This document shows, one piece after another, positions 47,300-50,415 of a stretch of DNA of 64,000 nt. A program made the position numbers and the translations under genes. The stretch lies in the NCBI GenBank assembly GCA_022825855.1, contig JAJDWB010000018.1, positions 62,001 to 126,000 of the forward strand, in the 5' to 3' direction. The stretch is from Dehalococcoidia bacterium (GTDB taxonomy: Bacteria; Chloroflexota; Dehalococcoidia; Bin125). Each line of letters starts with the position of its first letter. Within the stretch, counting starts at the first letter, position 1. Under the pieces are notes generated by a model that searched no databases, was not told the DNA's origin, and worked only from the letters and a program-made list of their open reading frames with translations.

Positions 47300-48073
47300 T
47301 CAGTTCGGCAGGATCAGGCCGCCCGGCGTGCGCCGTTCTCCGGGTTGCACACCGCGTTGCTGCAGCGTTTGCAGGATGAACGGGTTCTGCACGCGCTCCG
47401 CGCCCAGCGTGGTCTGATCCATGTGTCCCGGCAGCACGATCGTGTCGTCGGGCAGCATCAGCAGCTTGTCGACGATTGAGGACATCTCCTGGGCGAAGTC
47501 TCCGCCGGGCAGGTCGGTGCGGCCGATGCTGTTGCGGAACAGCGTGTCGCCGGAGAAGAGCACGCCGTGCCCGTAGAAGCAGACCGAGCCGCGCGTATGT
47601 CCCGGCGTGTGGATCACCTGCAGTTGGACGCCGTCGACTTCGACCTGCTGCTCGTCCTCGATGTAGTGGTCGGGATCGGGCGGTTGCTCGACCTGCATAC
47701 CACCTGTCAGCCCGAGACGGGCCGCCGACTCCGCCGTGCCCCGCAATATGTCGAGGTCCGCCTCGTGCAGGAGGAACGAGGCGTTGTCGGCCGACTGCAC
47801 GCCGCGCACGCCCAGGACGTGGTCGAGGTGCGCGTGCGAGTTGGCGATCATCTTTATCGTGACGCCCATTTCCGAGGCCATGTGCAGGATGTCGTCGGCC
47901 TGTTCGCCCGGATCGATGCAGATCGCCTCGCGCGTGCGCCGATTGCCGATCACCCAGCAGTTTTCCTGGAACGCGCCCACGATCAGACCGCGCACCTCGA
48001 TCTCGTTGACGTAGGGCTCGCCAGAGTCGTCTGCAGGGGCGTCCTGATCGTGGTCCGCGTCTTGGGCTGCCAT
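47300..48073 (-). CDS. MBL-fold metallohydrolase (glyoxalase II-like)
   Basis: The protein has 257 residues. An acidic leader of about 20 residues precedes the metallo-beta-lactamase fold. The metal-site motif is NSHAHLDHVLG (His80, His82, Asp84, His85), followed by HTPGHTRGSVCF, LFSGDTLF and LPGHMDQTT. The pattern is that of hydroxyacylglutathione hydrolase-like enzymes that hydrolyse thioesters of low-molecular-weight thiols. The C-terminal NPFILQTLQQRG is typical of the bacterial small form. It begins one base after the PAC2 gene, so the two are coupled. Confidence 0.88.
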   Translation of the reverse strand: MAAQDADHDQDAPADDSGEPYVNEIEVRGLIVGAFQENCWVIGNRRTREAICIDPGEQADDILHMASEMGVTIKMIANSHAHLDHVLGVRGVQSADNASFLLHEADLDILRGTAESAARLGLTGGMQVEQPPDPDHYIEDEQQVEVDGVQLQVIHTPGHTRGSVCFYGHGVLFSGDTLFRNSIGRTDLPGGDFAQEMSSIVDKLLMLPDDTIVLPGHMDQTTLGAERVQNPFILQTLQQRGVQPGERRTPGGLILPN

Positions 48074-48074
48074 C

Positions 48075-48971
48075 TCAGTTGGACTCGTCGCCTCGCAGCA
48101 GGCGGTTGACGGCCTCCATGATGTCTTCGCTGTCGAGCGGCGTGTCCGAGTCCGTCTCCTGCTTCATCTCTTCGTCGGCCTGCGCCTCGAGGTTGCGAAC
48201 GTAGTCGCGGATGTCCGGCTTGTCGTCGAGCGCGGAGTCGATCTGGGCGCGGTAGCGTTCCTGCGCGCCGTCGAGGTGATGGAGGTCGAGCTGCAACTCG
48301 AAGACGCGGTCGAGTTCGGTCAGCAGCGCCTTGGTCGCGCCGGGATTGTGCCGCGAGGTGACGTAGTGGGGCACCGACGCCCAGAAACCCATGTGCGGCA
48401 CCTGGGCGATGCGGCAGGCGTCGCCGATCGAGCCGACGATGCCGGTCGGACCCTCGTAACGCGAGGGCTGGAAACCGAACTCTTTCTGCCGCTCGGGATT
48501 GGACGATCCGCCAGAGACGCGGGTTGGCCGTGTGTGCGCGACATCGGCGAGCAGGGCGCCGAGGGTCACGACCTCCTCGACGTTGGCCATCTCGGCGACC
48601 TGCAGCACCGCGCGGGAATAGCGCCGCCAGCGCAGGTCCGGCTCGGTGCCCAGGCCGAGGACCAGGTCGTGGTCGGCCTCGGGCCGGCGCAGGACTGTGA
48701 ACTCGGTCAGCGGCCAGACGACTTCGCGTCTGGCGTTGTCGCCGTCGATCCACTTGACGGTCGGCCGGTGCTCGGTGAAGACGAAGAACTCGTCCGAATC
48801 GAGCGAGGCGACCGGCGCGCTGGGATCGAGATTGCGGAGAAACTTGACCGCGTCGGTGGCGGCTTCGGCGGCGTCGTTCCAGCCGAAGAACGCGAGGAGC
48901 AGGATTGGGCGGCGCAGGTCGTCGGGCAGACCGTCGATCGTCAGCGCGTCGTCGACACGTTCGTTGCTCAT
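48075..48971 (-). CDS. PAC2 family protein
   Basis: The protein has 298 residues. PILLLAFFGWNDAAEAATDAVKFL, the core VVTLGALLADVAHTRPTRVSG and GPTGIVGSIGDACRIAQVPHMGFWASVPHYV are hallmarks of the PAC2 family found in Actinobacteria, Chloroflexota and archaea, related to eukaryotic proteasome assembly chaperone 2. The bacterial function is unclear. The C-terminal 80 residues are charged and helical. The ATG has no ribosome site, but TACCCT lies 6 bases upstream, and a 10-bp-periodic repeat array lies about 60 bases further upstream. Confidence 0.88.
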   Translation of the reverse strand: MSNERVDDALTIDGLPDDLRRPILLLAFFGWNDAAEAATDAVKFLRNLDPSAPVASLDSDEFFVFTEHRPTVKWIDGDNARREVVWPLTEFTVLRRPEADHDLVLGLGTEPDLRWRRYSRAVLQVAEMANVEEVVTLGALLADVAHTRPTRVSGGSSNPERQKEFGFQPSRYEGPTGIVGSIGDACRIAQVPHMGFWASVPHYVTSRHNPGATKALLTELDRVFELQLDLHHLDGAQERYRAQIDSALDDKPDIRDYVRNLEAQADEEMKQETDSDTPLDSEDIMEAVNRLLRGDESN

Positions 48972-48977
48972 GCAGTG

Positions 48978-48983
48978 AGGGTA
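48978..48983 (-). promoter_or_regulatory. Candidate -10 element (TACCCT), leaderless start
   Basis: TACCCT lies 6 bases before the ATG of the PAC2 gene on the minus strand. This spacing fits a transcript starting at the ATG. The repeat array at 49041-49140 would then be centred about 115 bases upstream of the start. Confidence 0.4.
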
Positions 48984-49455
48984 GCCGCAATTGGTGGGGA
49001 GATGGCCAAGATCGTGGCCAACGGGCGGTTGGCTGTGTTCATTCCAGTCCAGCCATGTCTAGCGGTGTCCAATCATGTCCAACCCTGTCCAATGTTGTCC
49101 AACCGTGTCCAACTCTGTCCAATCGTGTCCAACCTTGTCCAAGACCGGATCGCCGCGGCTGGACGGTCTGGATGGCGCGTGAGCGGCTGTCGGATGGGCG
49201 AATGATCAATTTTGGGGTGATTTTCGCAGTCTGAGGCGAGGTTTGGAGCGGGTTTCGATGGTACGCGGACGCTTGCCAGCGGGGTCGGCTTGCAGATCGG
49301 GGATGCGTGTGTGGTGATCCGGCTGGCATTCGGAGTTCCGCCTCGTGAGTGTTCCCGTTACAGCACAAAGGTACTGTATAGCCGGGCGGACGTCAACCGG
49401 TCGGGCGCGACTCCAGGGTCTTGCGCGCAGGTCTCCAGCGGGGGCGATCCGTGCC
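48984..49455. other. Long non-coding region between the PAC2 and LLM genes
   Basis: No frame here has gene-like content or a family match. Apart from the repeat array it holds a T-rich patch (about 49203-49230), and TACTGTATAG at about 49374 on the plus strand that could be a promoter or an operator. It separates the PAC2-MBL pair from the LLM gene upstream on the same strand. Confidence 0.6.
49041..49140. repeat. Tandem array of ten 10-bp units (consensus AAYNNTGTCC)
   Basis: Ten units follow in exact 10-base register. The last seven joins each hold an invariant TGTCCAA, while the three bases between (TCA, CCC, TGT, CCG, CTC, TCG, CCT) vary. The first two units are degenerate. On the minus strand the constant part reads TTGGACA. 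It is upstream of the PAC2 gene. Confidence 0.9.
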
Positions 49456-50415
49456 TTAGAGCTCGACGGCGCCGTACTTCTCGCGCAGTGCGGGGACGAC
49501 TTCGGTGATGTAGGCCTCCAGGGCGGCCTCGCTCCAGGGCGCGCGCAGGGCGATGTTGACCCCGGCCGCGCCGGCGTCGCAGTACATCGAGACGCGGTCG
49601 AAGGCGTCCTCGGGCGTGCCCTGCAGCGCCCCCTCGGACACGCGAGCCGCCTGCTCGCCCCACTGCTCTTCCAGCTTCTCGCGGGCGATCTGCGCCTCGG
49701 CCTCGGTCGGGCTGAGGTTGAACTGCAGGTTGACGGTGCGATCGATCGTCGCCGGATCGCGGCCCTGCTCCCCGCAGCGCACGTCAAGCACGCCGGACAG
49801 CCGGGCAAACTCTTCCGGGCCGATGTAGGGGACGTTCCAGCCGTCGGCGTACTGCGCCGCCATGCGCAGCGTCTTGCGCTCGCCGCGTCCGCCAATCCAG
49901 AGCGGCACGTGTTCCTGCACGGGACCGGGCTGGTTGGTGGCGTCGAGCGCGTTGTAGTGGACGCCCTCGAACGTGGTGCGCTCCTGGGAGAGCATGCCCT
50001 TGATGATCTGGGTACCCTCTTCCAGCATTTCGAAGCGAATGCCCAGGCTGGGCCAGCCGTAGCCGAAGCCCTCGAATTCCATCTGGTGCCAGCCCGCGCC
50101 CAACCCCGGCTCGATCCGACCGTTGGAGATGTGGTCCAGGGTCATCAGCGACTTGGCCAGGTAGGCCGGATTGCGGTAGGGCACGCAGAAGACGAGGCAG
50201 CCGATCCGCACGCGCTCGGTCTCGGCGGCAATCGTCGCCATGCAAGTCAGCGCCTCGAAGTGGGGCGACATGCCGTCGACCGGCGGGGCCTCGTAGAAGT
50301 GGTCCCAGACCGAGATCCAGTCCATCCCCTGCTCATCGATCCAACGCCAGAGCCGGCGGAGGTCGGCCATGGCGACGTTTTGCTGTCCGGTGTGAACGCC
50401 GAAGGAGACGGGCAT
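49456..50415 (-). CDS. LLM class (luciferase-like) F420-dependent oxidoreductase
   Basis: The protein has 319 residues forming a TIM barrel of the luciferase-like monooxygenase superfamily. The start MPVSFGVHTGQQNV, then MDWISVWDHFYE, IGCLVFCVPYRNPAYLAKSLMTLDHISNGRIEPGLGAGW and VPLWIGGRGERKTLRMAAQYADGWN are typical of the F420-using or FMN-using TIGR03560-like branch. It catalyses a hydride transfer or oxygenation on an unknown small molecule. It stands alone; the spacer to the next gene downstream is the repeat-bearing region. Confidence 0.9.
   Translation of the reverse strand: MPVSFGVHTGQQNVAMADLRRLWRWIDEQGMDWISVWDHFYEAPPVDGMSPHFEALTCMATIAAETERVRIGCLVFCVPYRNPAYLAKSLMTLDHISNGRIEPGLGAGWHQMEFEGFGYGWPSLGIRFEMLEEGTQIIKGMLSQERTTFEGVHYNALDATNQPGPVQEHVPLWIGGRGERKTLRMAAQYADGWNVPYIGPEEFARLSGVLDVRCGEQGRDPATIDRTVNLQFNLSPTEAEAQIAREKLEEQWGEQAARVSEGALQGTPEDAFDRVSMYCDAGAAGVNIALRAPWSEAALEAYITEVVPALREKYGAVEL

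Follow-up and report, generated by a model that had tools for sequence, protein, structure and literature searches.

The stretch of DNA analysed here, called the window, comprises 64,000 nucleotides of the genome of an uncultured Chloroflexota (Dehalococcoidia), designated G000. At the locus under study, genes for a luciferase-like (LLM) oxidoreductase, a PAC2-family protein, and a metallo-β-lactamase-fold (MBL) protein lie on the minus strand, and a row of short direct repeats occupies the interval between the first two. The features, in window positions, are the following:

47300..48073, minus strand: MBL gene, after PAC2 (Pfam PF00753, E 1e-28)
48075..48971, minus strand: PAC2-family gene, the first gene downstream of the array (open reading frame; Pfam PF09754, E 8e-45)
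48978..48983, minus strand: TACCCT, a hexamer resembling a -10 element, 6 nt ahead of the PAC2 start (from orthologous upstream sequences)
49036..49062, minus strand: decayed units on the PAC2-proximal side of the core array and in its register, CTAGACA at 49056, CTGGACT at 49046, and possibly ATGAACA at 49036 (from laying the units out in register)
49066..49142, minus strand: core array of eight perfect TTGGACA heptamers (TGTCCAA on the plus strand) with 3-base free spacers at a 10-bp pitch (direct reading, shuffled-pattern search, and TRF)
49368..49396, minus strand: putative sigma-70-like element TTGACG-N17-TACCTT, between the LLM gene and the array (read directly on this strand)
49456..50415, minus strand: LLM oxidoreductase gene, upstream of the array on the same strand (Pfam PF00296, E 7e-45)

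The LLM–PAC2 intergene is 484 bp long in the window, versus about 50 bp in most of the relatives that have no array. The TACCCT hexamer, a possible leaderless promoter, occurs in PAC2 orthologues both with and without an array.

The first-pass annotation had described ten invariant TGTCCAA units. Eight of these are perfect, starting at 49066, 49076, and so on to 49136, while the remaining two are decayed and read TGTCTAG (49056) and AGTCCAG (49046) on the plus strand; TGTTCAT at 49036 may be a further relic unit. The exact 10-base register and the ever-changing spacers hold for the eight, the spacers being TCA, CCC, TGT, CCG, CTC, TCG, and CCT. The array lies 75–171 bp upstream of the PAC2 start at 48971, close to the 70–170 bases first given. 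TRF detects it at periods 10, 20, and 30, and TGTCCAANNNTGTCCAA has seven matches within the window against 0.00 expected in shuffles; the array is genuine and far above chance. Its pitch is 10.0 bp and not 10.5, so that on relaxed B-DNA successive sites drift by about 17 degrees per unit. Therefore, the earlier suggestion of contacts on one face of the DNA is only approximately right, unless the DNA is over-twisted or wrapped.

The window array is one of a family. A genome-wide count of TTGGACA units at 10-base spacing, as had been suggested, yields three arrays with at least three perfect units in G000, the third of which lies upstream of an unrelated gene. Dozens of sister arrays with the consensus YYGRACR-NNN, mostly intergenic and running up to 12–14 units, are found in the genus. 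Four consecutive YYGRACR-N3 units occur in 9 of its 15 genomes, in which the reversed pattern, used as a control, gave zero matches; among the 393 genomes of the class that were searched, five-unit arrays occur only in the same family (two genera). Of the classes seen, TTGGACA occurs in G000 and G014 only; the others are CTGGACA, whose spacers are A-rich, CCGAACA/TCGAACA, and CTGAACA. A general 10-bp periodicity of intergenes was considered as a source and rejected, as it is absent from intergenes without arrays. Downstream of the arrays lie metabolic genes of many kinds, among which no common theme is obvious. No earlier description of these arrays was found in the literature searched.

Some other repeats were met along the way. 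Tandem repeats of 57–66 bp with CCGAACA units (L085, L100, and L115) lie inside a long real open reading frame, unlike the intergenic arrays, and the 66-bp repeats were excluded for this reason. Downstream of CCGAACA arrays (L067, L073, L106, L107, and others), CCTGAAAAAA repeats at a 10-bp pitch form phased A-tracts, after which comes an inverted repeat near CGATCTCCAGTAAAACACTGGAGATCG; these stretches are partly explained as relics of the tails (KTLEI...) of the helix-turn-helix (HTH) genes described below. A dispersed element like CTCTCCCC..GCGAAGCGGGGGGAGATGCCGAAGGCAGAGGGGG is found in intergenes of several relatives (L126, L127, L129, L134, and L156).

Counting one array per orthologous locus, array and flanking genes have the same sense in 24 of the 26 tandem intergenes (p 1e-5), and several arrays stand 9–20 nt before a start codon, adjoining a ribosome-binding site. 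Given the strong orientation, a role at the RNA level is possible: the array would be a multivalent sense-oriented element in an intercistronic or leader transcript, for example, a row of sites for an RNA-binding or termination factor. Rho sites have regularly spaced YC dinucleotides, and these are present in the arrays of the CCGAACA class. However, YC is not regularly spaced in the sense strand of TTGGACA arrays, and a Rho-type rut site thus suits the CCGAACA arrays but not the one in the window. An RNA hairpin is also a weak candidate, since the predicted folding is only mildly more stable than that of shuffles (z -1.8 sense, -0.3 antisense). Moreover, the putative leaderless PAC2 promoter is downstream of the array, and the HTH of the linked protein is of the DNA type. 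Taking these points together, we regard an RNA-level function for TTGGACA as improbable.

Substitution patterns bear directly on whether the heptamers are kept. The TTGGACA arrays that are orthologous between G000 and G014 differ at 29 of 182 heptamer positions (15.9%) and at 36 of 78 spacer positions (46.2%; Fisher p 7e-7), while the four-fold sites of the neighbouring genes have changed at 169 of 574 (29.4%). The heptamers of these two arrays are therefore slower, and the spacers faster, than four-fold sites, and this comparison, made in two long arrays, is the least affected by finding pairs through their pattern. Over 26 units, changes per position number 2–8 in the heptamer and 11–14 in the spacer. 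Over all classes, eleven orthologous pairs differ at 14% of heptamer and 42% of spacer positions (p 4e-16), with heptamer conservation somewhat inflated because most pairs were pattern-found in both members; in one pair, L079/L118, the difference is absent.

The proposal of constant heptamers with free spacers maintained by selection is accordingly supported, and the even spread of mutations over all ten positions that a neutral microsatellite would show is not seen, since heptamers change less than four-fold sites and spacers change freely. Units are gained and lost as exact 10-bp indels, as slippage would produce, but the spacers inside the array differ nearly every time and the heptamer constraint recurs in independent orthologous pairs; a neutral microsatellite or slippage product is thus extremely improbable.

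The same cannot be said for a special tie to PAC2. When PAC2 orthologues were inspected, most relatives had no array upstream, including G014, the sole other TTGGACA genome; G005 has a CCGAACA array, and in G017/L030 an HTH gene with a TCGAACA array takes this place. Since it is absent from most relatives, the PAC2-upstream array is, as far as the sequences tell, lineage-specific and not conserved at PAC2; it may be of no importance to this gene, and it is one copy among many. A different picture is offered by gene X, which has no Pfam match and whose loci were collected by protein homology and not by pattern. Arrays stand upstream of it in most genomes, and their class varies by species: TTGGACA in G000 (also G014 and L071), CTGGACA-like in G010, G006, G005, and G002, CCGAACA in G012, CTGAACA-like in G007 and G008, and none in G009.

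Several arrays are part of the coding sequence for small HTH proteins, at the end that encodes the C-terminal tail. According to a profile search, this HTH family has up to 17 genes per genome and is present in 10 of the 15 genomes of the genus. Of the 88 HTH genes that have a tail, 37 reach a score of 14 or more at lag 10 and none does so at lags 7, 8, 11, 13, and 14; the lag-10 repeat is significant against codon shuffles in 45 of the 88. When array class is placed on the HTH tree, five changes are required, where the minimum is four and the shuffled mean is 21. Part of this agreement between class and clade is expected, since gene and nested array are passed on together, and by itself it is no proof of recognition. 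In G007 and G008, arrays lie upstream of an orthologous gene, yet a search of these two fragmented assemblies gave no convincing HTH-family gene. One HTH clade has expanded within G000 (L227–L231 and L233) as a dispersed single-gene repeat without a transposase; its copies are about 90% identical over some 720–740 bp, a stretch that reaches from about 89 bp ahead of the HTH domain almost to the stop, and many of them begin at CTCCGCAAACC.

A member of this family that is linked to the TTGGACA class is encoded elsewhere in G000:

G000:C14:63619-64071: HTH gene of 151 aa, linked to a TTGGACA array

Here, a gene and an array of the cognate class stand side by side in the same genome. The array begins 18 bp after the stop codon in G000 and 29 bp after it in G014, and being past the stop, these TTGGACA arrays are not coding. 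The two proteins are 151–163 aa long. A full-length orthologue of the G000 protein is found only in G014 (71% identity), with other matches at or below 46%. Paired TTGGACA units likewise occur only in these two of the 15 genomes; the chance of exactly the same two genomes is 1 in 105, in a co-occurrence that rests on two genomes. Pfam places the protein above the cut-off for HTH_23. In the AlphaFold model (mean pLDDT 88, pTM 0.59), a confident N-terminal helical HTH core is accompanied by long helices at the C-terminus, and profile searches against solved chains hit, among others, the DNA-binding domains of resolvase and DeoR; Foldseek returned no match with E<=0.001 from the PDB or viral libraries.

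We propose that this 151-aa HTH protein binds the window array cooperatively, with the direct repeats serving as its operator, a reading that we hold to be probable, though well short of certain, on the strength of sequence comparison. Given that each class of array is accompanied by a small HTH gene of its own, the array most likely serves for docking: about 8–10 head-to-tail TTGGACA-N3 sites in a row, at a 10-bp pitch, for a small homeodomain-like HTH protein. Binding would probably be cooperative along the row, with proteins assembling head to tail and several weak, strictly spaced contacts adding up, and the spacers would thereby be free to drift. As the array is upstream of and oriented with the PAC2-MBL operon, its occupancy most likely modulates the transcription that enters this operon. 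Several observations weigh against the reading: the array at PAC2 is lineage-specific, G007 and G008 have arrays while their fragmented assemblies yielded no convincing HTH-family gene, and the genes downstream of the arrays share no evident theme.

The main rival to the operator is that solo intergenic arrays are leftovers of decayed dispersed HTH genes and that the copy at PAC2 has no present function. This would account for the arrays nested in the coding tails of multi-copy HTH genes, for the gain and loss of the PAC2 array between species, and for G017, where an intact HTH gene holding an array lies directly upstream of PAC2. In addition, of 51 array loci searched, about six retain remnants of an HTH tail (KTLEI...) beyond the array, and several of these remnants contain in-frame stops. 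Nonetheless, leftovers would not be expected to have heptamers that evolve more slowly than four-fold sites while the spacers do not, nor does this reading suit TTGGACA arrays that lie after the HTH stop codon. At the window locus itself, neither an HTH relic nor any similarity beyond the array was detected; an internally deleted HTH copy was sought there, and the similarity was confined to the array. A coding repeat at PAC2 was also considered; the 10-bp indels and the stop-adjacent placement argue against it, although the nested arrays of other HTH genes are coding. We therefore consider the solo arrays unlikely to be mere leftovers, while giving this more weight than the other alternatives.

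It is tempting to extend the operator reading to the whole family. A dispersed single-gene HTH family might carry operator arrays of its own, within its genes or next to them, diversify into protein–heptamer pairs, and seed matching arrays upstream of host genes, so that the wiring spreads and switches specificity as a unit; this is a tentative idea, and we would sooner doubt it than accept it. In either case, it is unusual for an operator to consist of 8–14 direct repeats that are strictly phased and have free spacers. Several heptamer classes here correspond to clades of a single HTH family in one genus. If the proposed binding is true, these would be natural protein–DNA specificity pairs, and the repeated gene would be spreading its own binding sites.

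How do these arrays compare with known systems? OmpR/PhoB-family operators (the pho box, the tor box, and the Streptomyces PhoP repeat units) consist of head-to-tail direct repeats of 10–11 bp with about seven conserved bases, and the present arrays would be analogous in their head-to-tail repeats at a similar pitch. In contrast, the present arrays run to 12–14 units, and the linked 151-aa protein has no receiver domain; a Pfam search of this candidate protein alone found an HTH_23-type domain only, without receiver or Trans_reg_C domains.

The operator of CtsR, the Firmicutes heat-shock repressor, is a heptanucleotide direct repeat with a 3-base spacer, A/GGTCAAA NAN A/GGTCAAA (PMC12634643). 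By direct reading, the window array shares this 7 + 3 geometry, and CtsR is also an HTH protein. However, the CtsR operator has only two repeats, lies on the core promoter, and has a heptamer different from TTGGACA. CtsR (PF05848) was found in none of 21 genomes (G000 and 20 relatives), while a control genome was positive, and its absence rules it out as the binder of the array.

BldC of Streptomyces is a small HTH protein that forms head-to-tail oligomers on direct repeats of varying number (PMC5859096). The presumed binding mode of the TTGGACA-linked HTH protein resembles that of BldC. The two differ in that BldC is MerR-like and has a 9-bp AATT-type site, whereas the present protein is homeodomain/resolvase-like (HTH_23) with long C-terminal helices; a MerR-like winged HTH fold was sought in it and was found neither as a Pfam MerR match nor as a PDB fold match at E<=0.001.

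The TTGGACA-N3 unit is also present in viruses. The viral contig L318 (2299-3414) has seven such units in a DnaD-like helicase-loader gene adjoining a DnaB gene, a candidate phage replication origin, and three IMG/VR contigs (L312, L313, and L325) have three-unit arrays about 100–130 bp upstream of a conserved phage protein of about 180 aa (MSNxIxLTVEPHVETYI...). Since these viral contigs are unrelated, the unit arose or travelled elsewhere too. They lend some color to another notion, in which a phage or mobile element left the window array upstream of PAC2 by chance, as an iteron-like site for replication or partition. Yet the linked HTH protein is encoded in no phage or plasmid record searched, so that such a source for it was dismissed; by Pfam and open reading frames, the neighbours of the window array are the LLM oxidoreductase, PAC2, and MBL genes, with no replication or phage gene among them; and many dispersed chromosomal copies per genome misfit a single origin. 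An iteron origin is thus very improbable. Phage iterons located in an initiator or helicase-loader gene do parallel the HTH genes in that the array is inside the gene of a presumed DNA-binding protein, and L318 even shares TTGGACA-N3; the present arrays differ from them in being many, dispersed over a bacterial chromosome, and located upstream of host metabolic genes.
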